Of a stretch of 64,000 bases of DNA, positions 11,562 through 38,300 are shown one piece after another. This stretch comes from Polaribacter sp. HaHaR_3_91. Lineage in GTDB: Bacteria > Bacteroidota > Bacteroidia > Flavobacteriales > Flavobacteriaceae. The translations under genes and the position numbers were made by a program. Every line of letters starts with the position of its first letter. The first letter of the stretch is position 1. A model generated the notes under the pieces. That model was not told the DNA's origin. It did not search any database and saw nothing but the letters and a program-made list of their open reading frames with translations. The stretch covers positions 1,894,001-1,958,000 of the forward strand of contig NZ_CP058986.1 in NCBI RefSeq assembly GCF_019278525.1, read 5' to 3'.

Positions 11562-11975
11562 ATGTCTAAGAGCTTAAAAATATTATTAATAGAAGATAAT
11601 CTAATTGAAATAATGAAAATGAAAAGAACACTTTCATTATTAAAATTAGAACATACAATTCAAGAAGCTAAAAATGGTGAGGAAGCTTTAAAAATTTTAG
11701 AAGATAAAAGTAATTTTCCTGATTTAATTTTATTAGATTTAAACATGCCAAAAATGAGTGGTATAGAATTTTTATCTATTTTAAAAAAAGATGAAAGTAT
11801 ACAGCATATTCCTACTGTAATTTTAACCACATCAGATAATCAAAGAGATTTAGACCAATGCTATAAAATTGGGGTTTCTGGTTATATTTTAAAACCTTTA
11901 AAATATGATGATTATGTTCATAAAATTGAAAAAGTTTTATCCTATTGGAGTACAAATGAATTAAAAAAATATTAA
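11562..11975 (+). CDS. CheY-like single-domain response regulator
   Basis: The 137-residue product is a lone receiver domain. Asp59 in LILLDLNMP is the phosphoacceptor, Glu11/Asp12 form the acidic pocket, and the TTSD and LKPL motifs supply Thr and Lys. The length and SxNF-PDLILLDLNMP layout resemble Rcp1-type receivers that pair with phytochrome-like or PAS histidine kinases. With no output domain it must act by protein contact or as a phosphate shuttle or sink. It is first in a tight operon with an H-NOX sensor, two histidine kinases, an Hpt and a LytTR regulator. Confidence 0.93.
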   Translation: MSKSLKILLIEDNLIEIMKMKRTLSLLKLEHTIQEAKNGEEALKILEDKSNFPDLILLDLNMPKMSGIEFLSILKKDESIQHIPTVILTTSDNQRDLDQCYKIGVSGYILKPLKYDDYVHKIEKVLSYWSTNELKKY

Positions 11976-14957: not shown

Positions 14958-16103
14958 ATGAAAACCGTACAACTTAAAAAACATAAAAATGCTGATTGGA
15001 AATACTTATCGGAAAATATAACTTTAAAAGCACCGTTAGTACTTGTATTTGGAAATAGATATTTATTAGAAGATGAAATTATTTTTGAAGAAATTAGAGA
15101 CAAATTTAAAGACGGACATATAGTTTTTGGTTCGGCTTGTGGAGATATTTCATCAGAATCTATTGATGATGAAAGTATTACTATTACAGCTATAGAGTTT
15201 GAAAAAAGTAATTTTATTATTAAAACTACAAATGTTTTAAATGCTGCTTCTGATGCTAAAGTAGATAGTTTTAAAGTTGGAAAGGATTTAATTAGCCAAT
15301 TTTCTGAAGAAGGTCTAAAGCACATTTTTGTAGTTTCTGAAGGTAGTTTTATAAATGGTAGTCAATTAACAGAAGGCATGAATTCGGCTACAGATAATAA
15401 CTTATTAATTACTGGAGCTTTGTGTGGTGATGATGCTAGATTTGAAAAAACAATAGCTTCTTATAACGAAAAACCAAAACCAGGAGAAATAGTTGCCATT
15501 GGTTTGTATGGAGAATCTTTAGAAATAACATTTTCTATTAATGGAGGTTGGACTCCTTTTGGACCAGAACGAATTGTAACAAAATCTGAAGGAAATACGT
15601 TATATGAATTAGATAACTTACCAGCATTAGATTTATACAAAAAATATTTAGGAGAAAAATCTAAAGAATTGCCAGGAGCAGCCTTATTGTATCCATTAAA
15701 TGTAAAAACAGAAAATGGACACAATACGATTGTAAGAAGTATTTTAAATATAAACGAAGCTGAAAATTCTATGATTTTGGCTGGTGATATCTTAGAGAAT
15801 TCTAAAGTACAATTAATGATGACCAATGTAGATAATATTGTAAATGCAGCAGAAAAAGCGGCTAAAAGTGCACTAGAGTTTAGAAATAAAAAACCAGAAT
15901 TAGCAATTTTAGTAAGCTGTATTGGTAGAAAATTGGTTTTAGACCAAAGAGTAGAAGAAGAGGTAGAAGAAGTGATAGAAGTTGTAGGAGATACAACAAC
16001 AATAACAGGCTTGTATTCTTATGGAGAAATTGCTCCTTTTATTGGAGAAAATAGTTGTCAACTTCATAACCAAACCATGACAGTTACACTAATAAGCGAA
16101 TAA
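14958..16103 (+). CDS. FIST-domain sensor protein (NosP-like)
   Basis: The 381-residue product covers the whole FIST N and FIST C pair. FIST N includes LVFGNRYLLEDE and FGSACGDISSESI, and FIST C ends in GLYSYGEIAPF and LHNQTMTVTLI. FIST proteins are ligand sensors beside histidine kinases, and one branch, NosP, is an established haem-based NO sensor. The gene begins on the base after the upstream kinase stop and overlaps the downstream kinase by one base (TAATG), so translation is coupled to both. Pairing with H-NOX in the operon supports an NO role, but haem binding here is inference. Confidence 0.88.
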   Translation: MKTVQLKKHKNADWKYLSENITLKAPLVLVFGNRYLLEDEIIFEEIRDKFKDGHIVFGSACGDISSESIDDESITITAIEFEKSNFIIKTTNVLNAASDAKVDSFKVGKDLISQFSEEGLKHIFVVSEGSFINGSQLTEGMNSATDNNLLITGALCGDDARFEKTIASYNEKPKPGEIVAIGLYGESLEITFSINGGWTPFGPERIVTKSEGNTLYELDNLPALDLYKKYLGEKSKELPGAALLYPLNVKTENGHNTIVRSILNINEAENSMILAGDILENSKVQLMMTNVDNIVNAAEKAAKSALEFRNKKPELAILVSCIGRKLVLDQRVEEEVEEVIEVVGDTTTITGLYSYGEIAPFIGENSCQLHNQTMTVTLISE

Positions 16104-17146
16104 TGAATTCTTTATTAAAAAGACAAATAAGAAAGTATCTACCCCAAGAATTGCAATCTAATGAAGATTTAGAGCGGTTCTTAGATGCTGTTGATAAATC
16201 TTATACTACTTCAGAAGAGCAGTTTTTAATGCTTCAGAGAGCTACTAAATTTAGTTCTGAGGAGCTATTTTGTGCAAATGAGCAGCTTAGAGAAGAATCT
16301 GATTCTCAGAAAAAAGTAATCTCAAAATTAGAAAGTGTCATAGACAAATTACAGTTTTATGATTTAAAAAATAACCGTCCTAAAGAAAGCGTAGATTCTT
16401 TAAAATTGGTTGACTTTATTGATGATCAAACTAAAGAAATCATTAAAATTAATCAGCAAAAAGATAAACTTTTAAGAAATTTAGAACGACAAAATCAGGA
16501 ATTAAATGATTATGCTCACATGGTTTCTCATGATTTAAAATCTCCTCTACAAAGCATTGAAGTTTTGACTGCATGGGTCTTAGAAGATTATTCTGGGGTT
16601 TTAGATGCTGCCGGAAAGGAAAATTTACAATTTATTAGAGACAATGTAGAGAAAATGGACACACTTGTAAAAGGAATTTTAGAATACTCTACAATCGGTA
16701 GAATGGAAAAAGATATTTATGATGTAAATTTAAATGATTTAGTAAATAACTTAAAAAAGAAAGAAGAAAAATTAAATAGCGCTACTTATATAATTCCTGA
16801 AAGATTACCTACCATCAAAGGTGATAAATTTAGATTAGAGCAATTATTTTTACATTTATTAGATAATGCTGTCAAATTTAATGATAAAAAAGAACCTACG
16901 GTAGAAATAGGTTTTACTGAAGATTCTGATTTTTGGAAATTTTACATAGAGGATAATGGAAATGGAATTGATAACAAATATTTTGATAAAATATTTGTTG
17001 CATTTCAAAAATTAGAAGATGATTATAAATCTACTGGAATAGGTTTGTCTATCGTAAAAAAAATTGTTGAAGTATATAATGGAGAAATTTATTTAAAATC
17101 TGAGCAAAATGTGGGTTCTACTTTTTACTTTAGCATAAAAAAATAA
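16103..17146 (+). CDS. Cytosolic histidine kinase paired with FIST protein
   Basis: The 347-residue product has no membrane segment. The N-terminal 90 residues (LLKRQIRKYLP, then SYTTSEEQFLMLQRA and SSEELFCANEQL) form a helical module that I recall from kinases encoded beside FIST genes. A coiled coil leads to HisKA with His143 in SHDLKSPL and an HATPase with LHLLDNAVKF, DNGNGI and STGIGLSIVKK. Its DHp region closely resembles that of the upstream PAS kinase, suggesting shared phosphotransfer partners. The start codon overlaps the FIST stop, which argues for a FIST-kinase complex. Confidence 0.92.
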   Translation: MNSLLKRQIRKYLPQELQSNEDLERFLDAVDKSYTTSEEQFLMLQRATKFSSEELFCANEQLREESDSQKKVISKLESVIDKLQFYDLKNNRPKESVDSLKLVDFIDDQTKEIIKINQQKDKLLRNLERQNQELNDYAHMVSHDLKSPLQSIEVLTAWVLEDYSGVLDAAGKENLQFIRDNVEKMDTLVKGILEYSTIGRMEKDIYDVNLNDLVNNLKKKEEKLNSATYIIPERLPTIKGDKFRLEQLFLHLLDNAVKFNDKKEPTVEIGFTEDSDFWKFYIEDNGNGIDNKYFDKIFVAFQKLEDDYKSTGIGLSIVKKIVEVYNGEIYLKSEQNVGSTFYFSIKK

Positions 17147-17148
17147 AG

Positions 17149-17466
17149 ATGGAACAACCAAACTTAATATATATAGAACAATTAGCAAGAGGAGATGAAT
17201 CTATTAGAGCAGAGCTTATTGGGGTGATTAAAACAGAGTTTCCTGAAGAAAAGAAAGAATACCATAATAGCTTAGAGCATAAACAATTTAAAAAAATTGA
17301 AGAAAATGTTCATAAGATTAAACATAAAATTAGTATTTTGGGACTTGAAAAGAGTTACGAAATGGCAAATAAGTTTGAACATAATCTTAGAGAACAAAGT
17401 TTAGAAGGTCAGGAAGATTTTGATAAAATTTTAAAAGCAATTTCAGACTATATAGAAACTATATAA
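17149..17466 (+). CDS. Hpt histidine phosphotransfer protein
   Basis: The 105-residue all-helical protein has the Hpt signature HKIKHKISILGL, with His55 as the phosphorylated residue and the expected Lys three positions later. It lies 2 bases after the kinase stop and 5 bases before the LytTR gene. Neither kinase in the operon carries a receiver domain, so this Hpt most likely exchanges phosphate with the separate receiver proteins. Confidence 0.85.
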   Translation: MEQPNLIYIEQLARGDESIRAELIGVIKTEFPEEKKEYHNSLEHKQFKKIEENVHKIKHKISILGLEKSYEMANKFEHNLREQSLEGQEDFDKILKAISDYIETI

Positions 17467-17471: not shown

Positions 17472-18182
17472 ATGAATTGTATTATTATTGATGATGAAAA
17501 AATGGCAAGGGCTATTATAAAAACCCTTTGTAATGAAGTTAAGTCGTTAAACGTTGTTGAAGAGTTTTCTGGAGCTATTGAAGCCATGAAATATTTGATA
17601 GAAAATACGGTAGATTTAATTTTCTTAGATATCCATATGCCTGGTTTTAGTGGATTAGACTTTATAAAAACCTTAAAAAACCCACCTAAAATTATCTTAA
17701 CAACTTCAGATCCTAAGTTTGCCATTGAAGCTTTTGAGTATGATTTTATTATAGATTATTTATTGAAACCGTTAGAATTTCCTCGATTTAAGAAAGCTAT
17801 TCTTAAAGCAGAAACTAAAACGATTTCTATTAATGAACCTAAAAAAGAAGTTGTTGATTCTAAAAAAGTTGATAACGATTTTTATATTAATATCGATCGT
17901 AGATTAATAAAAATAGACTTACCAAGTATTTACTTAATAGAAGCTAAAGGAGATTATATTAAAATAAAAACAGAAACCAAAGATTATACGGTTCACTCTA
18001 CACTTAAGAAGATAGAAGAGAAGTTGCCTGAATCCCTTTTTTTAAAAATACATCGTTCATATATCATCAATATTAAAAAAATTATAGATATTGAAGATAA
18101 TAGTGTCTTAATCAAAAAAGATGTTATCCCTGTTAGTAGGTCTAAACGTCCAGAATTAATGAAAAGACTAGACTTACTTTAA
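17472..18182 (+). CDS. LytTR-family response regulator
   Basis: The 236-residue product has an N-terminal receiver with phosphoacceptor Asp53 in IFLDIHMP, then a linker. The C-terminal LytTR DNA-binding domain (about 130-236) contains INIDRRLIKIDLPSIYLIEA, FLKIHRSYIIN and SRSKRPEL. It is the last gene and the only clear DNA-binding output of the H-NOX/FIST operon. The next gene, 99 bases downstream on the same strand, encodes a T9SS-exported protein and begins the polysaccharide cluster, which is a plausible target region. Confidence 0.93.
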   Translation: MNCIIIDDEKMARAIIKTLCNEVKSLNVVEEFSGAIEAMKYLIENTVDLIFLDIHMPGFSGLDFIKTLKNPPKIILTTSDPKFAIEAFEYDFIIDYLLKPLEFPRFKKAILKAETKTISINEPKKEVVDSKKVDNDFYINIDRRLIKIDLPSIYLIEAKGDYIKIKTETKDYTVHSTLKKIEEKLPESLFLKIHRSYIINIKKIIDIEDNSVLIKKDVIPVSRSKRPELMKRLDLL

Positions 18183-19979: not shown

Positions 19980-20012
19980 AGGCGAAAGAGAAATCTTTTG
20001 CCTTATTTTTTA
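19980..20012 (+). terminator. Terminator between convergent genes
   Basis: AGGCGAAAGA and TCTTTTGCCT pair over 10 bp with one G-T pair around a GAAA loop, followed by TATTTTTTA. It overlaps the stop of the convergent minus-strand gene. Confidence 0.8.
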
Positions 20013-22078
20013 TATAAAGGTTTTCTTAAAAAAATCCATTTAAATCTTACACCAAACTCTGTATATGTAAAACCAGCAGAACCTGCAGTGGCAACAGCAG
20101 AAGCAATATTACTTTGTAATCCGTAGATATTTAAGAGTGCGCGTTCGGAAAACTTATAGCCTAATTTAGCTTGAACCCTATAGGTGCTAAGTGCGTCATC
20201 ACCTTCTATGTATTGCAAACCAGTAGCCGCCGTTAATCCATAAAACCACTCCTTGTTTTTTGCAGCCGCTTCATCTTTAATAAGATTAACAAAAATCTCT
20301 ACAGCATTAAATTTACTAGGACTAAAATAATTATCTCTAGATTCTTTAAAAGAGATGTTCTGGTAATTAAATCCTGCTTTTATAGAAGGTTTTGCAAAAA
20401 TATTATAGTAAAGAGAAGTAAATAATAGGTTTCTAGCGTTGTCATCACTTTGCCAAGTATAATAATACTGAGTAAACCAACCTAAATTAAAGTTGGTATT
20501 TAAGCTATAATTTAAAATAAGATTATTTTGCACAATTTCATCATTCAATAATGTTGCATTAAAATTCTGAACATCTCTTTTGTATCCTAATTCTAAGCTT
20601 TGAAGCTTAAATGGTTTTATATTAAGTGAAATATCTGTTAATAGTTGATTGTATTTTTTTGATTCTGAATCAGAAGAAGTAACACCAAAACTACCTTTTA
20701 AGGTTAGGTTATTTAGTAATTGATAAGAAACACCTAACAATAAGTTATTTGTAGTGGCTTTTAATGAGTCAATTTGATTATTAAGAGTTGTTCTAAAGTT
20801 ATAGTTTGCTAAAATTTTAAACTTTGTAGAAAACGGAACTTCAGCTTTTAGGTCGTATGCATTTGCTTCGTTATTTCCATTATCATAAGAATAAGAATAT
20901 TTGGTTTCTACATACGGAGTAAAACTTAAATCTAGTTCCTTAATAAAATTAGAGGCATCTTTTTGTTTTTCATAAAAAACTAAAGTGTTTTCTGCACTTT
21001 TATAAGCACTATTATAATAGCCAGATGCTTTTAAAGCATTTGCTTTTCCTAAATTACCATCAAAAGAAGCACTGTCTTTTTTTAAGATTAAATTATAATC
21101 ATTAATACTTTTCTTAAAATCACTTTTATAAATATTAAGTGTTGCTCGTAAAGAAAGCATCCAGTTTTCTGGGGTTTTATTATCATCTAATAGTTTATCA
21201 ATTTCAGTTTTGGCAGACGTATATTTTTTATTCCAAATTAAAGCTTGAATGTATCTTTCTATCGTTTGTTTTTTTAAGGTTTCAGAGGTGTTTTTATCAA
21301 TACTTTTTAGCGCTGTTTTGCTTACAGTTAATGCTGTTTTATCATCACCATCTAAGTGATGTGCTAAAGCGATTCCATTTAACGAAATAAGTTTATCTTC
21401 TGGCTTTTTACCTATAATTTCATAAGTGTTTTTTGCTTTTTCTATTTGTTTAGAAATTAAATATAAATTAGCAAGGTTTAGTAATGTTTCTTTATCGTCT
21501 TTAAATGAAGTGAAATTTTCTTTTAAAATGGTTTCTGCTTCCTTATATTTTTGATCACTTACTTTCTTACTTGCCAAGCCTAATCTCATGTATTTTTTAG
21601 AAACCAAAGCATTAGGATTACCAGGAAGTACCTCTAAGGCTTTGTCTACATTTATTAAAGCAGCTTTAAATTCTTTTAAATTAGATAAGGTATTAGCATA
21701 GCCTAATAATGCAGCAAAGCTTTTATCATTTTCTTTTAATAATGTTTGATAATAGATTTTTGCATCAGGGTAGTTTTTACTCCAAAGCAAAGACTCTGCA
21801 TAATTAAGTTTTACTTCAAAATCTGTAGGGTAATCTTTTAATAAGTTGGTAAAAAGTGTTACGGCAGCAGTATCTTTCCCATTTAAACCAATAGCTCTTC
21901 CGTAACAAAGTCTGGCCGTTTTATTTGTAGGATACTCTTTTAATATGTCTTTAAAAAAAACTTCGGCTTCCTTGTATTTACCTGTTTCTAAATAGGTAAA
22001 GCCTTCTTGCATGTCTTGACTAAAACTTTGTATACTAAAGAAAAGAAAGAAGATCAGTGTTGAATATAAAAATTTCAT
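20003..22078 (-). CDS. TPR protein with C-terminal outer-membrane beta-barrel (YaiO-like)
   Basis: The 691-residue product has a signal peptide ending QSFSQ. Residues about 22-380 are tandem TPR repeats (for example YLETGKYKEAEVFFKDILKEYP). Residues about 395-691 are amphipathic beta strands rich in Tyr, Asn and Leu, like a YaiO-family barrel. A periplasmic TPR scaffold fused to an outer-membrane barrel is the architecture of exopolysaccharide exporters such as PgaA and BcsC, although the sequence family differs. The nearby flippase, glycosyltransferases and membrane-tethered glycosidase support an export role, which remains inference. Confidence 0.8.
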   Translation of the reverse strand: MKFLYSTLIFFLFFSIQSFSQDMQEGFTYLETGKYKEAEVFFKDILKEYPTNKTARLCYGRAIGLNGKDTAAVTLFTNLLKDYPTDFEVKLNYAESLLWSKNYPDAKIYYQTLLKENDKSFAALLGYANTLSNLKEFKAALINVDKALEVLPGNPNALVSKKYMRLGLASKKVSDQKYKEAETILKENFTSFKDDKETLLNLANLYLISKQIEKAKNTYEIIGKKPEDKLISLNGIALAHHLDGDDKTALTVSKTALKSIDKNTSETLKKQTIERYIQALIWNKKYTSAKTEIDKLLDDNKTPENWMLSLRATLNIYKSDFKKSINDYNLILKKDSASFDGNLGKANALKASGYYNSAYKSAENTLVFYEKQKDASNFIKELDLSFTPYVETKYSYSYDNGNNEANAYDLKAEVPFSTKFKILANYNFRTTLNNQIDSLKATTNNLLLGVSYQLLNNLTLKGSFGVTSSDSESKKYNQLLTDISLNIKPFKLQSLELGYKRDVQNFNATLLNDEIVQNNLILNYSLNTNFNLGWFTQYYYTWQSDDNARNLLFTSLYYNIFAKPSIKAGFNYQNISFKESRDNYFSPSKFNAVEIFVNLIKDEAAAKNKEWFYGLTAATGLQYIEGDDALSTYRVQAKLGYKFSERALLNIYGLQSNIASAVATAGSAGFTYTEFGVRFKWIFLRKPLYKK

Positions 22079-22330: not shown

Positions 22331-23596
22331 ATGCAAGAAATTATAAGGTTTGTAAAAAAAGGTATAAAACCTGAACAATTATTTATGCTAAGTGTGCTCT
22401 TAGTAAACGGAGGTAATTATATATATAATTTAGTTTTAGGAAGGGTTTTAGGTCCTGAGAAATTTGCAGATGCTGCTATTTTAATTACTTTTTTATTGGT
22501 TTTATCTTTTGTAGCCATGACTTTTCAGTTGGTAACAGCTAAGTTTTCTGTACTTTTTGAGGATAGTATTTTTTCGGGTTTTATTTCTAAAATTTATAAA
22601 AATGCTTTATTTACAGGAATTATTTTAGGTATTGCAATCATTGTTTTTGCTACACAATTACAACATTTTTTTAAAACGACTTCTTCTACAATGTTTGTTA
22701 TTTTTGGAGTTGGTGTACCATTTTACTTTTTAATGAGTGTAAATAGAGGTGTTTTTCAAGGAAAGCAGGAATTGAAATCACTGTCTGTAACTTATCAATC
22801 AGAAATGATGAGTAGGTTATTATTAACATTTGCCTTGTTGTATTTTCTAGACATAGATTCTTCATTGATAATTGCTATTGGTATTTTTTTCTCTTTTGTT
22901 TTTGGGTTAATTCCTTTTAGAACGAGTAACTTTTCTTTATTCAAACCTTTTAAATTAGACAATGTTAATAAGAAATTGGTAAAGAATTTTTTTATTATTA
23001 CGGCGTTTTATGAGTTAACTCAAATTATTATAAACAATAGTGATATTTTGCTAGTAAAACATTATTTTGATTCTTATGAAGCAGGTTTGTATGCTTCTTT
23101 AGCTTTAATAGGTAGAGTTGTTTATTTTATTGCTTGGATGTTTGTAATGTTACTTTTGCCAACAGTAGTTCAACTTAAAAAAGAAGGAAAAGATACGTTA
23201 CCTATCTTATTAAAATATGTAGCATATATTGGCTTTATAGCTGCAACTATTGTAATTAGTTGCTTTTTCTTTCCCAATGAAATTATTAATATTTTATTTG
23301 GTAATGAATACGTGTCTGTAGCGTCATTACTATGGAAATATGCATCAGCAACAGGTATTTTTGCAATTTCAAACATATTTGCTTATTATTATTTATCATT
23401 AGACAAGTATGTGCCCGTTGTTCTGTCTGGTATTTTTGGAATGTTACAAATTGTTTTAGTTGTACTTTTTCATGAAAGTTTAGAACAAGTTGTACATGTG
23501 CAAATTATAGCAATGGTTTTATTATTAATAGTACAACTTAGTATCTTCTTTTTTAAAGATTCTAAGTCTTCCAAAAACCCAAAAGAAATAACCTAG
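22331..23596 (+). CDS. Polysaccharide flippase-like membrane protein (MATE/Wzx superfamily)
   Basis: The 421-residue polytopic protein has about 12 membrane segments. An early GGNYIYNLVLGRVLGPEKFADAAIL motif region is typical of oligosaccharide flippases and PST transporters. Such proteins move lipid-linked glycans from the cytosolic to the periplasmic face. The GT4 gene follows on the same strand after 112 bases. No Wzy polymerase or Wza/Wzc-type exporter is visible in the window, so if this is a polysaccharide system the later steps are unusual or encoded elsewhere. Confidence 0.85.
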   Translation: MQEIIRFVKKGIKPEQLFMLSVLLVNGGNYIYNLVLGRVLGPEKFADAAILITFLLVLSFVAMTFQLVTAKFSVLFEDSIFSGFISKIYKNALFTGIILGIAIIVFATQLQHFFKTTSSTMFVIFGVGVPFYFLMSVNRGVFQGKQELKSLSVTYQSEMMSRLLLTFALLYFLDIDSSLIIAIGIFFSFVFGLIPFRTSNFSLFKPFKLDNVNKKLVKNFFIITAFYELTQIIINNSDILLVKHYFDSYEAGLYASLALIGRVVYFIAWMFVMLLLPTVVQLKKEGKDTLPILLKYVAYIGFIAATIVISCFFFPNEIINILFGNEYVSVASLLWKYASATGIFAISNIFAYYYLSLDKYVPVVLSGIFGMLQIVLVVLFHESLEQVVHVQIIAMVLLLIVQLSIFFFKDSKSSKNPKEIT

Positions 23597-23708: not shown

Positions 23709-24893
23709 ATGAAATTAGCAATCGTAACAGCGTATCCACCAAGTAAAGTAACCCTAAACGAATATGCATATCACTTAGTTAAAAGTTTTAGGTTGAAAGA
23801 AAAGGTTACAGAATTAATTCTTTTAACCGATGAAACTCCAGGTGAAAAAGAGATTCAGTTTGAAGCAGATGGTTGTAAAATTACGGTAAAAGAATGTTGG
23901 CAATTTAATAGCTACGCTAATACTAATAATGTTATAAAAGCAATTAATGAAACAAAGCCAGATGCTGTTTTATTCAACTTACAATTTATGAAGTTTGGAG
24001 ACAAGAAAGTTGTTGCTGCATTAGGATTAACATTGCCATTAATTTGTAAGGTGAAAGGAATTCCTACCATTGTTTTATTACATAATATTTTAGAACAAGT
24101 AGATTTAGAAAGTGCCGGATTTACCTCAAATAAATTGGCTCAAAAAGTATATAATTTTATTGGTACTTCATTAACAAAGTTGATCTTAAAAGCAGATTTA
24201 GTTGCGGTTACCATGGATAAATATGTAACAACTTTAGTAGATAAATACAAGGTTGATAATGTGAAAATGATTCCTCACGGAACTTTTGAAATTCCAGAAA
24301 ATCCATCACAAAAATTACCTGAAGGTCCTTTAAAGATTATGACTTTTGGAAAGTTTGGGACCTACAAAAAAGTAGAATCTATGATTGAAGCTGTAGAAAT
24401 TGTAAGAAGAGAAACAGGTGTAGATTTAGAAATTGTAATTGCAGGAACAGACAACCCAAATGTACCTGGTTATTTAGAGAATGCTCAAGAAACTTACAAA
24501 CATGTACCACAACTTACGTTTACTGGGTATGTAGAAGAAAATGAAGTAGCACCGTTGTTTACAGAAAGTGCTGTAGTTGTTTTTCCTTATACGTCTACAA
24601 CCGGAAGTTCTGGAGTATTACATCAAGCTGGAAGTTATGGTAGAGCAGTGGTAATGCCTAATTTAGGAGATTTAGCAACCTTAATTGAAGATGAAGGTTA
24701 TAGAGGTGAGTTTTTTGAACCAGAAAGTGTAACAAGTTTGGCAAATGCAATTAAAGCAATTGTAACAGATGATACATATAGAATAGAACTTGGCGAAGCA
24801 AATTACAAAGCAGCAACGGCGTTCCCTATGGCAAGAATTACAGATATTTATTTAGAAGAATTTGATAAAATTATATCCAAAAAGAAGTCATAA
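23709..24893 (+). CDS. GT4-family glycosyltransferase
   Basis: The 394-residue cytosolic GT-B protein has an N-terminal acceptor half starting MKLAIVTAYPPSKVTLNEYA. The C-terminal donor half contains GKFGTYKKVESMIEAV, the PYTSTTGSSGVLHQA stretch and the trailing acidic FEPESV. This is the GT4 pattern of a retaining transferase using a nucleotide sugar. It probably extends a lipid-linked glycan for the flippase encoded upstream. Its stop codon abuts the stop codon of the convergent minus-strand operon with no gap. Sugar and linkage are unknown. Confidence 0.9.
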   Translation: MKLAIVTAYPPSKVTLNEYAYHLVKSFRLKEKVTELILLTDETPGEKEIQFEADGCKITVKECWQFNSYANTNNVIKAINETKPDAVLFNLQFMKFGDKKVVAALGLTLPLICKVKGIPTIVLLHNILEQVDLESAGFTSNKLAQKVYNFIGTSLTKLILKADLVAVTMDKYVTTLVDKYKVDNVKMIPHGTFEIPENPSQKLPEGPLKIMTFGKFGTYKKVESMIEAVEIVRRETGVDLEIVIAGTDNPNVPGYLENAQETYKHVPQLTFTGYVEENEVAPLFTESAVVVFPYTSTTGSSGVLHQAGSYGRAVVMPNLGDLATLIEDEGYRGEFFEPESVTSLANAIKAIVTDDTYRIELGEANYKAATAFPMARITDIYLEEFDKIISKKKS

Positions 24894-26411
24894 TTATTCT
24901 TTAGAAATGTATTTATAAGATAATTTTTTTTCTCCTTTATTATTGATAAAACCAAATTTCTTCTGCGGATTAGTTCTCCAAGGCAGTCTACCTAAAACCT
25001 CTTTAGGAACCACATCAAAATCATATAAAGTCCATGACATAAAAGGAACAGAGTTCTTTGTCAGGACTTTTTGTATTTCTTTATAATAGTTAGCTTGTTT
25101 TTCTTCAGAACCAACAAAAGGTCTCCAAAAACCACCATAAGATGATAGCCCAAACTCTTGTAATACAATAGGTTTGTCTTTTATTTCTTCTTTTAAGGCT
25201 AAGTATTCATCCTCAAAATTAAGTAAGTCTTCATAATAGTGAAAAGAAACAACATCTACTTTGTCTTTTAAAATAGTGGCACTTTTGGTGTTAGACCAAC
25301 CAATGGTTACGGGATGTTTTTTATCAATATTTTTTATCAAAATAATCATAAAATCTAACCAAGCGGTTACATTTTCTTTACCTCTAGAGTTAAAATCTAA
25401 ATTAGGTTCATTTTTTACGTCCCAAGCCAAAATAGCTTCATGTTCTTTAAAAGTTTCAACAATTTTCTCTGCATGTCTTTGGTTCAATGTCCAGTCTAAA
25501 ACATCATAATTTCCATAAAAATCAAACAAAGTAACCACAACTTTTAGGTTTTCTGCTAATGCGGTGTCTAATACGTTTTTTAATTTTTCTAGTTTTTCTG
25601 GTTTCACATTTGCTTTACCAAAATCTTCATAAGGCACAAAAATTCGAATAGAATTTAATGCAGCCTCTTTTATAATTTTAAAATCGTTTTTTATAATATC
25701 AATATCAAATTCATCACCGTACATATTCCATGGGGTCGCTTGTGGGTAATAATTGATCCCTTTAATATCAGCAAATTCTAAGGATCTTTTTACAGGAGTA
25801 TTTTTAAAATTTTCCGAAGCTTCTTTTACCATGTGTCTTACGCGCCAAAAGCCATCTTCTAATAATAATACATATTTGTAAGAAGTAACTTCGGTAGTTT
25901 CTAAGATTAACTTTTCATCTTTAAAAACCTTTTTATACTCGATTGCATTGGTGTCTTTTAAAACAATTAATTGTCCGTCTTCACTAAAAAACTCGATGTC
26001 TAAATTATGTTCTAATGTAGTAGCTTCTATAGAAGTGTTGTTCAGTTTGTTGTAATCTAAATTAGCATAGATGTTTTTTCTTGCACTTTTAGTAAAGTAA
26101 TCTTCTATACCAACTCTTGTGTTTGTTTTGTAAGCAATTTGCTTTACATACCACGCGTCTAAATAATCGTTTTGCACGGCAGCAATTTTTTGAGGACTTA
26201 TTTTTCTGCCTTCATTACCATCATCTTTCCATGTTACTTTAGGTAAGTATTGTTCTACTTTTTTAACTTCTGTATGCAACATTTTGCTTCTATCTGCACC
26301 AGTGTTTAAAAAACTGTATAGAGAGCTTACCAAGAATAAAAGAACGCCAATTATTGCTAGGTAAGTTAGCATTAACACACCTCTAAGAATTTGTTTATTT
26401 ATTTTTACCAT
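24894..26411 (-). CDS. Membrane-tethered clan GH-A glycoside hydrolase-like protein
   Basis: The 505-residue product has one N-terminal membrane segment (about residues 10-32). An extracytoplasmic region (about 35-200) is followed by a TIM barrel (about 205-500). AWDVKNEPNLDF supplies the acid/base Glu after Asn, and VLQEFGLSSYGG the nucleophile Glu, as in clan GH-A families such as GH5. It is last in an overlapping trio with a big membrane protein. A glycosidase tethered in a polysaccharide cluster recalls the hydrolases of synthase-dependent secretion systems. Its substrate may be the cluster's own polymer. Confidence 0.82.
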   Translation of the reverse strand: MVKINKQILRGVLMLTYLAIIGVLLFLVSSLYSFLNTGADRSKMLHTEVKKVEQYLPKVTWKDDGNEGRKISPQKIAAVQNDYLDAWYVKQIAYKTNTRVGIEDYFTKSARKNIYANLDYNKLNNTSIEATTLEHNLDIEFFSEDGQLIVLKDTNAIEYKKVFKDEKLILETTEVTSYKYVLLLEDGFWRVRHMVKEASENFKNTPVKRSLEFADIKGINYYPQATPWNMYGDEFDIDIIKNDFKIIKEAALNSIRIFVPYEDFGKANVKPEKLEKLKNVLDTALAENLKVVVTLFDFYGNYDVLDWTLNQRHAEKIVETFKEHEAILAWDVKNEPNLDFNSRGKENVTAWLDFMIILIKNIDKKHPVTIGWSNTKSATILKDKVDVVSFHYYEDLLNFEDEYLALKEEIKDKPIVLQEFGLSSYGGFWRPFVGSEEKQANYYKEIQKVLTKNSVPFMSWTLYDFDVVPKEVLGRLPWRTNPQKKFGFINNKGEKKLSYKYISKE

Positions 26412-27622
26412 AATTTAATACTTTTAAAATCTTTTTTAAGACCTGCAGTTTCAATACTAAAATCATAAACATCATTTTCAAAAATATTGGGATCTAAGTA
26501 AAAAATTGCTATCCCGTTTAAAGACTCATTATATTTTTCTTTGATAAGTACGTTGTTTTTATAAATAGATAGTTTTACAGATAAACCATCTGGAATGATT
26601 TGATCCATAAAACTTTTTAAAGGACCAATTTTAATACTTCTATTCTTCTCTAAAAAGGAAACGATATAATCTTCAACAACTTTTTTATACTTTACTGTTA
26701 TTGTATTGCTTTCTGCAATACCAATAAAATAGGCTTGCACGTTCCAAGTATCTTCAAAATCTGGATGTATAATTTTTGCGTGTGCGACTCCGTTTACAGT
26801 AGTACCAGCAGTTTTTAAAATATTTCCTTTTTTATTCGTAACGTAAAATTCAATATAACTACCATCACTAACAATATTTTTATTTTTGTCTTTTATTGTT
26901 GATGTAAAAAAAGTTGTTATTTGATTTCCATCTGCATACTCATGATTTCTACGAACATATAGTTTAAAGTTAGTAGCAATTGCTGGCATTACATTTACAT
27001 CAAATTCTTTAGAATTTAAACCGAAAGATTCTGAGGAAATAATCATTCTACCACTTTTTTTAGGAGCATAAATATTTTTATGACCAATTAGCTTATCTGT
27101 AAAAATAGCTTCGGTTTTTTCAGATTTTAGAAATTGATACTTTACATCCACCTTACTTTTATTCGGTATAGGGTTGTCTAAGCTATCTGTTGGTATTACC
27201 ACCAGCATTGTGTAATCGGTATCACCTGCATCTATACTTGGCGGACCTAAATAAGTTTCTATGGATGTTGGTTCTTGCAGAGGTGAAATAGAAATGTTCC
27301 CTGAAATTATGGTATCTGTTTGTGTGGTTTTCCAAGAAAGTATTCCTCTTTTTCTTGTTAAAAAATCGGGGATTTTAAATGTAACTTTTTTATTGATACT
27401 TTTAGATTCTATTACTGTAGCTCCATAACTGTTAGTACAATATAATTGAAATGTGGTATCTTTTTTAACTTTAAAATCGAGTGATATTTTATCACCAACC
27501 AGATAATTTATTTTTGTTGATACTAATAAAACAGCAGGTTTTTTAGTTGTTGTTTCTTGTGAAAAAAAAGAAACAATAACCAATTGAAAGAGAAGTAGAA
27601 AAAATACTTGTTTTAATTTCAT
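26405..27622 (-). CDS. Exported Ig-like repeat protein
   Basis: The 405-residue product has a signal peptide (MKLKQVFFLLLFQLVIVSFF) and then beta-rich modules. They recall bacterial Ig-like or macroglobulin-like domains, for example LVSTKINYLVGDKISLDF near the start and ADGNQITTFFTSTIKDKNKN in the middle. There is no enzymatic motif. It overlaps the downstream GH gene by 7 bases and the upstream membrane-protein gene by 1 base, so the three products should be made together and may form an envelope complex. Function is unknown. Confidence 0.72.
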   Translation of the reverse strand: MKLKQVFFLLLFQLVIVSFFSQETTTKKPAVLLVSTKINYLVGDKISLDFKVKKDTTFQLYCTNSYGATVIESKSINKKVTFKIPDFLTRKRGILSWKTTQTDTIISGNISISPLQEPTSIETYLGPPSIDAGDTDYTMLVVIPTDSLDNPIPNKSKVDVKYQFLKSEKTEAIFTDKLIGHKNIYAPKKSGRMIISSESFGLNSKEFDVNVMPAIATNFKLYVRRNHEYADGNQITTFFTSTIKDKNKNIVSDGSYIEFYVTNKKGNILKTAGTTVNGVAHAKIIHPDFEDTWNVQAYFIGIAESNTITVKYKKVVEDYIVSFLEKNRSIKIGPLKSFMDQIIPDGLSVKLSIYKNNVLIKEKYNESLNGIAIFYLDPNIFENDVYDFSIETAGLKKDFKSIKLW

Positions 27623-30600
27623 TATTTAGGATTACCGATATACATACTTAATTCTATTCTAACATAGCTAAAAAGTGGATGGATTACTTTTTGTAGTTTA
27701 CCAATAGTATGGTTTTTTATTCTATTTGGCATTATTTTAGAAGCAATATCTTTATTTGGTAAACCGTTTACAAAGCAAAAATCCATATTTTTACTTATTG
27801 TTTTAATGGTTGGGTTTAGAGGAATAGCATAATTAAAACGAATTTTTCTTTCTTGTCGTATCCCTTCTTTTAAAAATAAATTATCCACCCAAATCATTTC
27901 TTTATCCTTGTTATAAAATGTAATAATTAATTGAGGAACCGTAATTTCTTGAATTCCACTATTAAATAAAGTTCCGCTTATGCTAGTTGGTTTTATATTA
28001 ATTTCACTTAAAACAATATCCTTAAACAAGTCCGAATTGGTTGTGTTTCCTGCAGCTTGTAAGTTAAATTTTGTGGGTTGCTCACTGAGTTCTATAGGTG
28101 TAAATTCGTCAGGATTAAAAGTTTTAGGAATAGAATCTTTTGTTTTAGACCAAGCAATACCTTCAAAATTAATTCTAAAAGCACTAATCTCTTTTGGCAT
28201 TAATTTGTGTTTTAAAATGTGTTTAGCATTATAAGTAGCCAATTCTTTATTCTCATCATTATAAAGTGTCCCTTTTAAGACTACGTCTGATGGAACATTA
28301 TCTATATTTTGTACTTCTCCAATAATAGCATAACGTTTGTTAAACTTTATTAGTTTGGCAGAAACAATTTCTAAAACGGGTTGTTTTAAAACATCTTCGT
28401 GATGGGTTTGTTCTGTAGTAATTCTTCTTCTTCCTTGATTAAAATAACCTGTAGAATTCTTAGAATATAATTGATCTGGTGGTAAATCTATCGATTTTCT
28501 TGTTGGTTTTAAATACCACTTACTGTTTCTTTTAACAGTTGTTTTAAATTCAGTTTTTGATAATTTTTCTAATGGAGTAATCCATTTTGTTTCTACCTTT
28601 AAAGTGGCCAAACTATCTGTCTGCTTTATAATCTCTGTGGTTATAGCGTCTAACTTTGCATAAGAACTTAACAAGCCATCTGTAACAGATATCTCTAGTA
28701 AATATTGTGCTCTTGTAAGCTCATCTTTTGGATCTATGTAGGTATAACTTTTATTCAACTCTTTAAAATCGACAGCGTCATAATATGCTTTTACTACATT
28801 TTCTGGAGATCTTTGTGTATCGTTTTTAATATAAAACATATAGCATGCATAACCAATTGTAATTATTAAAATAACTGCCCAGAGATGAAATGCTTTTAAT
28901 ACAATTCTCGGAAACTTATTGTAATCTACTTTAAATTTAAAGTATACAGGAACAGCTTTAAACTTTGTTTTTAAACTATGAACAAATAAGGACTGTATAT
29001 TTAAAATAAATGCAATAAGTACAGTTAAAAAAGGAATGATCCCCCAAATTATTTTTACCCAAGCAGGTACATCTTCTTTGGGTAAAATAGATGAAATAGG
29101 GGGTACGTTTAATTTTTCCCAAACCATAATGCCGTTCTCTAATTGCGATAAACGCTGCCATCCGCAGAAAAATAATACGGGGTCATAAAATTTATCATTA
29201 GAAAAAATATATTTTAAATTATACTTTTCTGGTGTTGTTAAAAATTGTTGCAGAGAACCAATACCGGCAACTCCTTTAAACTTTGAGTTTTCTAAACGTT
29301 CTATAGGTCTTGTTGTTAGCTCTGGCAAACGTCTAGCAGAGTGATAATTACCATCTACACTCATTGCGTTTGTTTGGGCCGCTAACCACGCCATTTGATC
29401 TCCAAACCCCAACGTTAAATACCTCCAATGGTCATGCGAATCTTGACTTAGAAAGTTTACAATAGGAAGCATTTTTATCTTTTGAGGTTGAGAAGGTCTA
29501 AAATATCCCAAACTCATGGTAAAAATTACCATAGAAACATAAAAAGCGGCCAAAAGTCCTCCTAATAAACGGTGATAAACGGCACCAAATCGTTCTTGTA
29601 TTAGAACTTTTAAATCTCCTTCTACAAACCTATAGATAAACTCTCCAAATATAGGAATAGACATGATTGAACCCCAAAGTGTAAACCTGTCTAAGGTTAA
29701 AATATTAAAGGCCGTTTCACCTAAAATCATTTTAGGTATTGGTGTTGTGCCACCCGTTCCCAAAATAACTAACATGGTAAAAGACAATCCGAAAAATAAA
29801 TACCTTTTACTAAAGTATCTGTAAAAGATATAAGGAAAAATGAATAGTAAAATTCCCCATGGAATTGTGAAAAATACTAAACCCGAAGATGTTATATCTA
29901 TAAAACTGTCTCTAGATCCGTGAGGGATAGGTACTTGTGTTATTGGGTTTAATTTTGAATTCATCCAATAGGGAAAAATACAAAATATTATAAGGAACAG
30001 TGAAGAGAACCCAAACGCAAGGTTTTTCTTCAGTTGTTTCATAAATGTTTTTAGAAATAAAGATAAAGTAACTTCTTTATAAGAGTTAACTTCTTCTCTA
30101 GCAACATCCATAATAACTGTTCCTATTAAAGGAAATATAAAAAATAACATTCCAAAGATAGGGGTAACATGATGAGAAGTAACGGTAACAGCGATTAAGG
30201 AAAGAGAAGTAAAGAAAAATTTATATTTTCCCGTTTTAAGCCATAGGTATATTTCGGGTAACGAATGCATTAAAACAGAAACTCCTATAATACTGGGTAA
30301 TTGACCAAATATATGCAAAGTCTCTACAAAAGAAGACGAAAAAACAGCTAAAATAGCAGCATAACCAGCAACAGTTCTATTAGATGTTATTAATAAAGAA
30401 TATCTGTAGGCCCCAGTAACAAATAGAACAATGGCTATTAGAGCCACTGTAAACATCCCAAATTTTAAGCCTCCGATTAACGATAAAGCTCCAATTGTTT
30501 GATGCACCAATGGAGGATAACTCTGCACCGTAAAGCCAGTATACCATTTATAATTCCAAGGTTCAAACCAACTAGTTGCATAATGATCTGCAAAAAATAA

Positions 30601-30711
30601 ATGAATTAAAGCGTCATAGGTAGTTTCTAATGTAAAGAAAATAGTAGAACCATGAAAAAGAACTGCCAATAGAATTGCAGTAATTAAGTATTTATTAGAT
30701 TTTTCTTTCAT
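27622..30711 (-). CDS. Large polytopic membrane protein (GT-C / PTPS-related type)
   Basis: The 1029-residue product has about 12 membrane segments in residues 1-590. One loop has the acidic motif ETTYDALIHLFFADHYA early in the chain, as in GT-C-like proteins annotated as 6-pyruvoyl-tetrahydropterin-synthase-related membrane proteins. Another membrane segment (about 605-630) leads to a soluble extracytoplasmic part with three beta-type domains. GT-C enzymes take sugar from polyprenyl-phosphate donors on the periplasmic side. The DPM1-like GT2 in the divergent operon could make such a donor. Enzymatic activity is not proven by any motif I can verify. Confidence 0.75.
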   Translation of the reverse strand: MKEKSNKYLITAILLAVLFHGSTIFFTLETTYDALIHLFFADHYATSWFEPWNYKWYTGFTVQSYPPLVHQTIGALSLIGGLKFGMFTVALIAIVLFVTGAYRYSLLITSNRTVAGYAAILAVFSSSFVETLHIFGQLPSIIGVSVLMHSLPEIYLWLKTGKYKFFFTSLSLIAVTVTSHHVTPIFGMLFFIFPLIGTVIMDVAREEVNSYKEVTLSLFLKTFMKQLKKNLAFGFSSLFLIIFCIFPYWMNSKLNPITQVPIPHGSRDSFIDITSSGLVFFTIPWGILLFIFPYIFYRYFSKRYLFFGLSFTMLVILGTGGTTPIPKMILGETAFNILTLDRFTLWGSIMSIPIFGEFIYRFVEGDLKVLIQERFGAVYHRLLGGLLAAFYVSMVIFTMSLGYFRPSQPQKIKMLPIVNFLSQDSHDHWRYLTLGFGDQMAWLAAQTNAMSVDGNYHSARRLPELTTRPIERLENSKFKGVAGIGSLQQFLTTPEKYNLKYIFSNDKFYDPVLFFCGWQRLSQLENGIMVWEKLNVPPISSILPKEDVPAWVKIIWGIIPFLTVLIAFILNIQSLFVHSLKTKFKAVPVYFKFKVDYNKFPRIVLKAFHLWAVILIITIGYACYMFYIKNDTQRSPENVVKAYYDAVDFKELNKSYTYIDPKDELTRAQYLLEISVTDGLLSSYAKLDAITTEIIKQTDSLATLKVETKWITPLEKLSKTEFKTTVKRNSKWYLKPTRKSIDLPPDQLYSKNSTGYFNQGRRRITTEQTHHEDVLKQPVLEIVSAKLIKFNKRYAIIGEVQNIDNVPSDVVLKGTLYNDENKELATYNAKHILKHKLMPKEISAFRINFEGIAWSKTKDSIPKTFNPDEFTPIELSEQPTKFNLQAAGNTTNSDLFKDIVLSEINIKPTSISGTLFNSGIQEITVPQLIITFYNKDKEMIWVDNLFLKEGIRQERKIRFNYAIPLNPTIKTISKNMDFCFVNGLPNKDIASKIMPNRIKNHTIGKLQKVIHPLFSYVRIELSMYIGNPK

Positions 30712-30888: not shown

Positions 30889-32061
30889 ATGAGAATTTTA
30901 GCTATTGATGATCAAAAATTAGTTCTAATACCTTTAGAAAGTAGGTTAAAAGAAATGGGGTATGAAGTATTAACAGAAACAGATGCTTTAAAAGGAATTG
31001 AACTATACAATTCTTTTAAACCAGATTTAGTGATTGTTGATATTAATATGCCAACTATTTCTGGTTTAGAGGTTGTAAAACATATTAGGGAAGTTAAAAA
31101 ATCTAATACACCAATTATGATTTTATCTGGTAATACAGATGATGACATGATTACAAAAGGCTTTGATTTAGGTGTAAACGATTATATGAAAAAACCTCTA
31201 AGTTTAACAGAGGTTGGGTTAAGAACAAAAAGATTAATTGGTCTTCCTGAAAATACAGATACTACAAAAAAATATAAGAACACTATTATACAACAAAGAT
31301 GTGTTGGGGTTGTAATACCTTGTTATAATGAAGAAGAAAGATTGCTTAGCAAAGAATTTACAGATTATATAGATAAAAATACCGGATATCACTTATGTTT
31401 TGTAAATGATGGAAGTAAAGATAAAACTTTAGAGGTTTTACATAAGTTAAGAAAAGGTAGAGAAGACTTTATTACTGTTTATGATTGTGAAAAAAATGGA
31501 GGTAAAGCAGAAGCTGTTAGGCAAGGTATGTTATATATGGCTAAGCAAGAAGATTTAGACTATATAGGTTTTTTAGATGCAGATTTATCAACAGATTTAG
31601 CAGATTTTGATGATTTAGTTTCAACTATTGAAAAATCTAATTATAAGATTGTAAGTGGTTCTAGAATTAGTAGAATGGGTGCAAATATTACAAAAGAGTC
31701 AGCAAGAAAGATTATTAGTTTGACCATTAATTACATCATTAGAAAAATTCTTTCTATGGACTTTAAAGATACCCAATGTGGTGCTAAAATTTTTCATAAA
31801 GATGTGATAGATATTTCTTTTAAAGAAAAATTTGTTACCCAATGGATTTTTGATGTTGAAATTTTTAGAAGAATAACGCTTCATTTTGGATTAAAAAAAG
31901 CGAAAGAAATATTATGTGAACAGCCATTAAAAAGATGGATTCATGCTGATGGTTCTAAACTATCAATGAAAGATTCTGTTAAAATAGTTGGTCAACTAGG
32001 GCAAATTGCTTGGCATTATAGAAGTGGAAAAAAAGATTATAAAAGTACTGTTGTTGCATAA
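30889..32061 (+). CDS. Response-regulator receiver fused to GT2 (DPM1-like) glycosyltransferase
   Basis: The 390-residue product joins two domains in one frame. Residues 1-120 form a receiver with Asp7/Asp8, phosphoacceptor Asp51 in IVDINMP, Ser80 and Lys102, so all key residues are present. Residues 139-390 form a GT2 catalytic domain with VVIPCYNEEERL, VNDGSKD and the metal-binding DAD at 230-232. DTQCGAKIF resembles dolichyl/polyprenyl-phosphate sugar synthases. No membrane segment follows. Phosphorylation could switch sugar transfer. The kinase could come from the H-NOX/FIST operon of the same cluster (inference). ManA lies downstream in the same operon. Confidence 0.93.
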   Translation: MRILAIDDQKLVLIPLESRLKEMGYEVLTETDALKGIELYNSFKPDLVIVDINMPTISGLEVVKHIREVKKSNTPIMILSGNTDDDMITKGFDLGVNDYMKKPLSLTEVGLRTKRLIGLPENTDTTKKYKNTIIQQRCVGVVIPCYNEEERLLSKEFTDYIDKNTGYHLCFVNDGSKDKTLEVLHKLRKGREDFITVYDCEKNGGKAEAVRQGMLYMAKQEDLDYIGFLDADLSTDLADFDDLVSTIEKSNYKIVSGSRISRMGANITKESARKIISLTINYIIRKILSMDFKDTQCGAKIFHKDVIDISFKEKFVTQWIFDVEIFRRITLHFGLKKAKEILCEQPLKRWIHADGSKLSMKDSVKIVGQLGQIAWHYRSGKKDYKSTVVA

Positions 32062-32080: not shown

Positions 32081-32491
32081 ATGAAAAAAGGAATCATAAT
32101 AATATGTAATAAGAATGACCTTGATGTTTTAGAGGAAATCCGTTTTAAATCACTTTTTAATAAAGAGTTTAAAATATGTATCGTTAATAATGGTAACAAT
32201 AATAAAATATTAAATTTCTTACTTAAGTTAAAAGAATCTTCTAAATTTGATATTTCTATTTTAAACTTGAGAAAAGAAACAGCTTTAAAGTTAGCAATGA
32301 AAGCAGGAGTGCGGTTTTTGTCTAACTTATATGATGTTCAGTTATTTGTGCATACTACCCCAAAAAGTGTTTTTAAACACAATTTAAAAAAGAAATTAGA
32401 AAGTATTAAGGATGAAAATTTCATAAATAAAAAAAATGAAAGGGTTTTGTTGCGAAGCGTGTATTCGTTAAACGAAATTACTAGTTTATAA
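32081..32491 (+). CDS. Small GT2-like protein, probably non-catalytic
   Basis: The frame extends upstream to 32006, overlapping the receiver-GT2 gene, but ATG at 32081 is the natural start (MKKGIIIICNKNDLD), giving 136 residues. The order IIIICNKND, CIVNNGNNNKILNFLLKL, NLRKETALKLAMKAG mirrors the first half of a GT2 Rossmann fold (PCYNE, VNDGS, KNGGKAEAVRQG). The metal-binding DxD and the second half are absent. It may be a degraded GT2 copy or a regulatory partner of the fusion protein 19 bases upstream. It lies 10 bases before manA. Confidence 0.65.
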   Translation: MKKGIIIICNKNDLDVLEEIRFKSLFNKEFKICIVNNGNNNKILNFLLKLKESSKFDISILNLRKETALKLAMKAGVRFLSNLYDVQLFVHTTPKSVFKHNLKKKLESIKDENFINKKNERVLLRSVYSLNEITSL

Positions 32492-32501: not shown

Positions 32502-33719
32502 ATGAAAAACTTAGAAAACAAACTACTTAGAATTGAAGGTAAAGTGCAAAATTATGATTGGGGAGGAGAAAGCTTCATTCCTAATTTAGTTTCAGAAACT
32601 ATAGAGCCAAACACTACATATGCAGAATATTGGTTAGGAGCACATTTAAAAGCACCTTCAAAAGTTATTACAGAAGAAGGTAGTGTTTCATTAGATGAGT
32701 TTTTAGAACAAAATATAACAGAAAATTTAGGCGTTGAAGTAGCAAAAGACTTTGGTAAACTACCATATTTATTCAAAGTTTTAGATGTAAGTAAAATGTT
32801 ATCTATTCAAGTACATCCAAGTATTGCTGCTGCTAAAATAGGGTACAAAAAAGAAAATAAACAAGGAATTCCTTTAACTGCTGATAATAGAAACTATAAA
32901 GACGAAAATCATAAGCCAGAAATAATGGTGGCTTTAACCGATTTTTGGTTGTTACATGGATTTTTAGAAAGTGAAAAATTAGCAAAAAACTTAAAAGAAA
33001 CTATAGAGTTAAGTTTCTTATTAAATACTTTCTTAGAAGAAGGTTATTTAGGGCTTTATAAAAAAGTGATGGAATACTCACAAGAAGAAGTAAATACAAT
33101 TTTGAGACCTTTGGTAAAAAGAATTCTTCCAAAATTTGTTAATAATGAATTAGAGAAATCTTCACCAGCATATTGGGCAGCCAAATCATTAAACAATAAA
33201 GATTCTGAAGATATTGATAAAGGTATTTTTTCTATTTACTTTTTTAATATTTTAAATTTAAGTAGAGGAGAAGCAATTTTTCAAGATGCAGGAGTGCCGC
33301 ATGCGTATTTAGAAGGTGTAAATATGGAGTTAATGGCAAATTCAGACAATGTGTTAAGAGCAGGGTTAACTAGCAAACACATAGATGTTGAAGAACTTAT
33401 AAAAAACACAAAATTCGAAGAAACGATTCCTATTATTTTATTCGGTGACGAAAATAAAGAGAATGGAGAAGTTATTTTTAAAACCAAAGCAAAAGACTTC
33501 GAATTAAGTAAAATTGAATTGATTAAAACAATGTCTCATACTTCAACTTCAAATTCCGTAGAAATATTAATGACTTTAAAAGGAGTTGCTGTTGTTACTC
33601 AAGAAAATGAATCTATCTCTTTAGATAAAGGGCAGTCTGTGCTTATAAAAGCAAATACTAGGTATAAAATTACTACAACTTCTGAAGTAGAAATTTATAA
33701 GGCAAGTGTGCCAAAATAA
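32502..33719 (+). CDS. manA: Mannose-6-phosphate isomerase, class I
   Basis: The 405-residue product begins LRIEGKVQNYDWGG, and carries the zinc-site motifs SIQVHPS, HKPEIMVAL and GVPHAYLEG, with NSDNVLRAGLT further on. It interconverts fructose-6-phosphate and mannose-6-phosphate, the entry to GDP-mannose. It closes the operon of the receiver-GT2 fusion, which suggests that the sugar handled there is mannose or a mannose-derived sugar. A very strong hairpin follows. Confidence 0.93.
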   Translation: MKNLENKLLRIEGKVQNYDWGGESFIPNLVSETIEPNTTYAEYWLGAHLKAPSKVITEEGSVSLDEFLEQNITENLGVEVAKDFGKLPYLFKVLDVSKMLSIQVHPSIAAAKIGYKKENKQGIPLTADNRNYKDENHKPEIMVALTDFWLLHGFLESEKLAKNLKETIELSFLLNTFLEEGYLGLYKKVMEYSQEEVNTILRPLVKRILPKFVNNELEKSSPAYWAAKSLNNKDSEDIDKGIFSIYFFNILNLSRGEAIFQDAGVPHAYLEGVNMELMANSDNVLRAGLTSKHIDVEELIKNTKFEETIPIILFGDENKENGEVIFKTKAKDFELSKIELIKTMSHTSTSNSVEILMTLKGVAVVTQENESISLDKGQSVLIKANTRYKITTTSEVEIYKASVPK

Positions 33720-38224: not shown

Positions 38225-38300
38225 CACCCCTACATCTTCTTTTTTTACCACAACAACACCAATACATTGGTAATTTAATTGTGTTTTAGGTTAATATTTA

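Follow-up and report, generated by a model that had tools for sequence, protein, structure and literature searches.

A receiver-glycosyltransferase fusion protein of Flavobacteriaceae as a candidate enzyme output of a nitric-oxide-type phosphorelay

Analysis of 64,000 nucleotides from Polaribacter sp. HaHaR_3_91 (assembly GCF_019278525.1, contig NZ_CP058986.1, positions 1,894,001-1,958,000 of the forward strand; the whole stretch is called the window below) identified a gene whose product joins a receiver domain to a glycosyltransferase of family 2 (GT2). The protein, designated REC-GT2, would be a response regulator with an enzyme as its output. In the explanation that we favour, and to which we give an even chance as a whole, a histidine phosphotransfer (Hpt) relay phosphorylates the receiver and thereby controls the synthesis of a lipid-linked sugar. 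The GT2 half would form a polyprenyl-phosphate-linked sugar at the cytoplasmic face of the membrane, with the receiver half setting the timing. A GT-C-like membrane protein would then spend this sugar in the periplasm, building or decorating an exopolysaccharide presumed to be made by the same locus (GT4 glycosyltransferase, Wzx-like transporter, glycosidase, TPR protein). Since REC-GT2 lies near genes resembling a nitric-oxide-sensing relay, bacteria that carry it may start and stop making slime independently of the usual messenger molecule. The gene and its two parts are as follows.

30889..32061, + strand: REC-GT2 fusion protein, 390 aa (open reading frame, Pfam, homologs)
30889..31242, + strand: receiver domain of REC-GT2, residues 1-118
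31303..32028, + strand: GT2 domain of REC-GT2, residues 139-380, polyprenyl-phosphate sugar synthase-like

An earlier note on this DNA had described a single continuous frame joining an intact receiver to an intact GT2 domain. The frame does run uninterrupted from ATG to TAA, with no overlapping open reading frame of at least 80 aa on the opposite strand, and both Pfam domains score far over the cut-off: Response_reg at residues 3-108 (E 7.2e-24) and Glycos_transf_2 at residues 141-306 (E 2.9e-21). Each residue that the note named was found at its position. The receiver has the acidic pair (D7, D8), the phosphoacceptor Asp (D51), the Ser/Thr (S80) and the Lys (K102) of a response regulator, and the GT2 domain in the same polypeptide keeps its catalytic residues, including DAD at 230-232. 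The host genome contains a single full-length copy.

When about 5.8 billion proteins were searched (E <= 0.001), 7998 candidates were scored, of which 7913 were matches. The best 120 of these are 78-100% identical to REC-GT2 and come from Polaribacter, Tenacibaculum, Kordia, Winogradskyella, Portibacter and other genera; all 120 have both Pfam domains. The fusion is thus undivided in these relatives, where a split frame would have spoken against it, and a chance fusion, a frameshift or an assembly error is ruled out. Residue conservation was assessed in an alignment of 109 rows, some of which are overlapping fetches of one gene and six of which are stand-alone receivers. D7, D51 and K102 are present in every row, position 80 is S in 108 rows and T in one, and position 8 is D in 105 rows and H in the other four (two genes, each fetched twice). 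Among the 103 GT2-bearing rows, D230 is present in 102 and D232 in all, which rules out a dead GT2 and bears out the description of both halves as intact. Ratios of nonsynonymous to synonymous substitution (dN/dS), calculated for 15 pairs of close relatives, range from 0.03 to 0.18 for the receiver, with a single outlier pair at 0.27 whose dS is only 0.03, and from 0.03 to 0.12 for the GT2 domain. Such low values in each half indicate that both are under purifying selection.

Variants of the arrangement were also observed. Six Algibacter loci (L043, L046, L051, L064, L069 and L072, at about 8001-8372) have an added stand-alone receiver 24-26 bp upstream of REC-GT2, 52-62% identical to the receiver of the fusion. 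Two genomes of one genus (G088 and G312) have a tandem REC-GT2 copy in which D8 is replaced by H (rows L009/L019 and L010/L020), adjoining an intact copy. In genome G218, a REC-GT2 paralog (L023, 1492-2583, - strand) combines an intact receiver with a degenerate GT2 (VNYS, FLNED). Receiver and enzyme thus appear to have been duplicated and unequally lost, a pattern that would fit a regulated multi-subunit enzyme. At two further loci (L015, 17-2235; L016, 1495-3669), stand-alone GT2 relatives adjoin the gene of a DUF6056 membrane protein, a second pairing of a GT2 with a membrane protein.

The label of polyprenyl-phosphate sugar synthase-like enzyme, already applied in the earlier note, names the closest structural class of the GT2 half. 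Its best sequence and fold matches are dolichyl-P-mannose synthase (DPMS; 5mm1/9ep0), GtrB (5ekp/9nyd) and ArnC (9bhe), with which it shares the GT-A fold and the DXD motif, the sequence alignment covering only residues 3-175 of 254 against ArnC and 4-141 against GtrB. REC-GT2 differs from these synthases in having a receiver; we know of none in DPMS, GtrB or ArnC. GtrB and ArnC carry membrane helices, which REC-GT2 seems to be without. Judging from sequence and modelled fold, the GT2 half quite probably makes a polyprenyl-phosphate sugar. Two neighbouring genes bear on its function.

27622..30711, - strand: 1029-aa membrane protein, GT-C-like predicted fold, probable lipid-linked-sugar-dependent glycosyltransferase (structure model, alignment)
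32081..32491, + strand: companion of REC-GT2, 136 aa, GT2-like, similar to the first half of a GT2, probably not catalytic (PF00535, BLASTP)

The gene of the 1029-aa protein is divergent from that of REC-GT2, the two standing back to back. When 395 Bacteroidota genomes were scored on their best four candidates each, the two proteins co-occurred in the same 12. The predicted model of the 1029-aa protein has a GT-C-like transmembrane fold, GT-C enzymes being the usual consumer of lipid-linked sugars such as polyprenyl-phosphate sugars. An acidic residue following the first helix, D33 in the motif TYDALIH, is invariant in 24 aligned GT-C-like sequences, and we take it to be catalytic. The PTPS_related model (PF10131), which presumably belongs to the GT-C clan, matches 8 of the 24 homologs (best E 0.001) and does not match the window protein. 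The model and the alignment suggest that the product is probably a lipid-linked-sugar-dependent glycosyltransferase.

The companion gene follows REC-GT2 immediately in the window. Its product matches PF00535 with E 0.003 (below the cut-off) in the window and E 1.8e-7 in locus L032, and REC-GT2 itself with a BLASTP E of 0.001. It was found by profile in 64 of 81 loci, window included, and an open reading frame of companion size starts no more than 150 bp downstream of REC-GT2 in 62 of the 81. In an alignment of 65 rows (the window being present twice, the second time as L001), Asn occupies the position equivalent to D174 throughout; D230 is kept in seven rows and D232 in two. Because the Asn is constant while the sequence changes fast, these data suggest that the protein is retained for some non-catalytic role and is not decaying. 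This fast-evolving protein could be a regulatory subunit.

On the far side of the polysaccharide genes, the window contains a signalling module.

11562..11975, + strand: single-domain receiver, head of the module (PF00072, E 1.7e-23)
11978..12517, + strand: H-NOX haem nitric-oxide sensor (PF07700, E 5.7e-40)
12594..14957, + strand: multi-PAS histidine kinase
14958..16103, + strand: FIST protein (PF08495, E 5.8e-39; PF10442, E 3.1e-35)
16103..17146, + strand: histidine kinase (PF02518, PF00512)
17149..17466, + strand: Hpt phosphotransfer protein, 105 aa (PF01627, E 2.2e-6)
17472..18182, + strand: receiver-LytTR DNA-binding response regulator (PF04397, PF00072)

The sensor has the HNOB domain, and its His ligand and the sequence YxSxR, which we take to be the H-NOX motif, are invariant in all eight aligned proteins. 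The Hpt motif VHK.KHK is likewise found in 9/9 aligned homologs. The proximal His of H-NOX is discussed in a review (PMC8738867), where the FIST family is said to include NosP. A distant H-NOX subfamily, 25-29% identical to the window protein, takes the same position in the module of G218, G289, G257 and G335 (L144 9981-10523, L145 7450-7992, L158 5378-5917, L159 2606-3148). Small proteins of about 100 aa that by eye look STAS-like are found repeatedly in the vicinity of the module and the polysaccharide genes (L121 15979-16623, L153 7828-8454, L154 7019-7321).

H-NOX was found in all 12 REC-GT2 genomes versus 4 of 29 genomes of the same family without full-length REC-GT2 (Fisher p 2.3e-7, uncorrected for shared descent; the 29 were taken from earlier listings and are not a random draw). 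The LytTR regulator (>=60% identity) is also present in 12/12, although the regulator is no rarity outside them (E <= 1e-50 in 43 of 395 genomes). In nine of the ten genomes judgeable by their contigs, namely the window genome, G103, G158, G182, G130, G134, G218, G289 and G257, the exopolysaccharide-type locus has H-NOX, a kinase, Hpt and LytTR next to it, no farther than about 6 kb from its TPR end; the linkage in G257 consists of a contig with the module and the TPR gene. FIST is present in seven of the nine. G088 and G312 were left out of this count, their TPR gene standing at the end of its contig. In G084 and G304, two of four genomes that have the module without REC-GT2, other polysaccharide-type genes adjoin it (open reading frames judged by eye), and stretches L153 (8742-19900) and L154 (10242-19901), also from genomes without REC-GT2, show the module followed by a cluster that by eye looks to be of Wzz/Wzx/Wzy type.

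We postulate that the phosphate comes most likely from the Hpt protein of this adjoining kinase module, which mostly includes H-NOX and FIST. On the strength of gene linkage and co-occurrence, we lean towards the linked Hpt as the phosphate donor and, to the same degree, towards nitric oxide as the input signal. That phosphorylation of the receiver changes the function of the GT2 protein is quite probable. As to the sign, our guess is that the kinase works in the absence of nitric oxide, keeping REC-GT2 phosphorylated and on, and that nitric oxide turns REC-GT2 off; the identity of the sugar is equally a guess. The Hpt would also feed the LytTR regulator, one relay thus serving both expression and enzyme activity.

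The earlier note had proposed that a fusion of this kind could switch sugar-donor synthesis without transcription or cyclic di-GMP (c-di-GMP). The latter part agrees with a search for GGDEF domains, which gave no match in any of the 12 REC-GT2 genomes and was positive in 8 of 14 named control genomes. The former was only half right: the linked module contains a receiver-LytTR transcription regulator. Because that regulator belongs to the module, both levels of control may apply, and expression and enzyme may both be regulated. The most detailed version of the proposal, in which the H-NOX/FIST/Hpt relay directly gates the lipid-linked sugar through phosphorylation of the glycosyltransferase, without c-di-GMP enzymes, together with transcription through LytTR and with the catalytically dead GT2 half-protein as regulatory partner subunit, is tentative and on balance doubtful.

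Several observations weigh against the favoured explanation. By eye, no strong hydrophobic or membrane segment is present in the 390 aa of REC-GT2, and the two-domain model (mean predicted local distance difference test score, pLDDT, 81.6; predicted template modelling score 0.70) leaves the domain interface unproven. The model of the 1029-aa protein has a pLDDT of 62 overall and is weak outside the first 400 residues; its best Foldseek match, an OST chain, has an E of only 6.8e-4. In G335, the contig of the main locus was followed to where it ends beyond the TPR gene and shows no module; the module of this genome stands on a different contig, some 20 kb away from a second copy of REC-GT2 (51% identical). 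G088 and G312 have an Hpt/LytTR module without H-NOX, on another contig and near a contig end, H-NOX being elsewhere and, in G312, accompanied by its own receiver and kinase. Finally, 4 of the 29 same-family genomes have the module but no REC-GT2, and the Hpt may therefore serve LytTR alone.

The latter cases lend some weight to the idea that another kinase phosphorylates REC-GT2 and that its link to the nitric-oxide-type module is mere neighbourhood in a polysaccharide island. Other kinase-like genes do stand beside REC-GT2 in Maribacter (L065) and in a longer stretch of G335 (L122, by BLAST), and the host genome has 33 matches to REC-GT2, mostly other receivers. Yet H-NOX and LytTR each accompany the fusion wherever it was found among the 12 genomes, the module is adjacent in nearly all judgeable cases, and the C-terminal parts of the window kinases, used as queries against the neighbouring open reading frames, found kinase genes in just 2 of 97 other stretches (L044 and L065). 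The idea of a conserved kinase neighbour of REC-GT2 was rejected on this result. We consider a separate kinase unlikely, though well short of negligible. The Maribacter antarcticus stretch (L065, 9370-12814) has two kinase-like genes downstream of REC-GT2, one with a receiver-like start, and offers a candidate local kinase.

We regard as about equally unlikely that the receiver sets the location of the enzyme rather than its rate, phosphorylation docking a soluble GT2 on the GT-C-like protein, the companion or the transporter. The missing membrane segment, a conserved C-terminal helix (360-378), the constant co-occurrence of a membrane partner and the frequent companion-sized frame downstream would all suit such docking. 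However, human-type DPM synthase subunits are soluble and nevertheless active, so that the absence of an anchor is not diagnostic. The very great breadth of the GT2 family and the partial alignments to ArnC and GtrB leave a small chance that the GT2 half is not a polyprenyl-phosphate sugar synthase but a glycosyltransferase that primes the exopolysaccharide or extends its chain. Least probable, indeed improbable, is that the fusion is real but its receiver serves passively in dimerisation or folding and has lost the capacity to accept phosphate. The tandem paralogs in which H replaces D8 imply that an acidic-pocket residue can be lost from some copies, but each of these paralogs adjoins an intact copy, and apart from them all five signature positions are kept in the aligned rows.

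Phosphorelay control of the enzyme, as favoured here, has relatives among known systems. The earlier note had set the fusion apart from the usual outputs of response regulators. The architecture does have precedents: receiver-glycosyltransferase fusions of methanogens (PF13641, BcsA-like), such as MTH_548, have already been described as response regulators with an enzyme output (PMC5847659). Both types have a GT2-class glycosyltransferase as output, with one or two receivers in the MTH_548 type. That type is archaeal, and its reported cases are confined to three genera of Methanobacteriaceae (PMC5847659), whereas REC-GT2 is polyprenyl-phosphate-synthase-like, found in Flavobacteriaceae and Portibacter, and linked to H-NOX, a separation drawn from Pfam scores and from the published description. 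REC-GT2 scores 76.6 bits with PF00535 and 19.9 bits with PF13641 (cut-off 27), which excludes it from the MTH_548 type.

Signalling through H-NOX and NosP shows a similar combination of haem sensor, FIST, histidine kinase and Hpt acting on response regulators for biofilm or polysaccharide (PMC8738867, PMC12369376). The review has c-di-GMP enzymes, kinases, quorum sensing and gene expression downstream of H-NOX and NosP, and it notes FIST genes near hnox (PMC8738867); V. fischeri uses HnoX as an inhibitor of the kinase HahK, and its SypG and SypE exert control at the transcriptional and post-transcriptional levels (PMC12369376). The outputs described there comprise c-di-GMP enzymes, quorum sensing, gene expression and SypG/SypE; here the candidate output is a glycosyltransferase, in genomes where GGDEF was not found. 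By analogy, the flavobacterial module could follow the V. fischeri logic, LytTR taking the role of SypG and REC-GT2 that of SypE. Among the matches listed in our literature searches, which left subscription papers mostly outside their coverage, we noticed no published account of this receiver-GT2 fusion of Bacteroidota. A word search of the text of a 2015 survey of two-component proteins (PMC4558063) found no word starting with "glycosyl", and one of a comparative genomics study of Flavobacteriaceae (PMC7440613) found neither "H-NOX", "nitric oxide" nor "exopolysaccharide". As far as the literature was searched, the different GT2 class, the constant GT-C-like partner, the dead GT2 companion and the linkage to a nitric-oxide-type phosphorelay where GGDEF was not found are new.

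The proposal bears on the question of how bacteria without c-di-GMP achieve fast control of exopolysaccharide. The candidate switch is one soluble protein with phosphate site and enzyme in a single chain, which reduces the question to a one-protein assay. If the proposal is true, nitric-oxide phosphorelays would gain sugar-donor synthesis as an output, and a defined signal would stand behind the biofilm decisions of marine Flavobacteriaceae.

The remaining genes around REC-GT2 are listed below.

20003..22078, - strand: 691-aa TPR protein of the exopolysaccharide-type locus
22331..23596, + strand: Wzx-like polysaccharide transporter (PF13440, E 2.2e-10)
23709..24893, + strand: GT4 glycosyltransferase (PF13692, E 7.5e-19)
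24894..26411, - strand: 505-aa glycosidase-like TIM barrel, N-terminal hydrophobic segment by eye (PF02836, E 2.7e-8)
26405..27622, - strand: 405-aa Ig-like (Big_1/invasin-like) probable periplasmic protein (Pfam matches below cut-off)
32502..33719, + strand: mannose-6-phosphate isomerase (TIGR00218, 252.7 bits, cut-off 116.2)

Neighbouring genes were clustered for 98 loci and the window (L001 being the window itself, and L009/L019 and L010/L020 overlapping); loci L004-L023 span only about 3-4 kb, more distant genes being out of view there. The 405-aa Ig-like protein is present in 78 of the 99 clustered stretches. Pel and cellulose are synthase-dependent exopolysaccharide systems controlled by c-di-GMP, and the present locus resembles them in combining GT4, transporter, glycosidase and TPR parts in a polysaccharide machine proposed to be under post-translational control. 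It differs in the absence of GGDEF matches from the 12 genomes, and its assignment as Pel is unsupported because no PelF or PelG model is among the matches listed for the GT4 and Wzx-like proteins. Further along the window, positions 34441-48025 contain a probable polysaccharide-utilisation locus, with SusC-like (by eye), SusD, GH16 and TIM-barrel glycosidase genes beside a Y_Y_Y/LuxR-type regulator.
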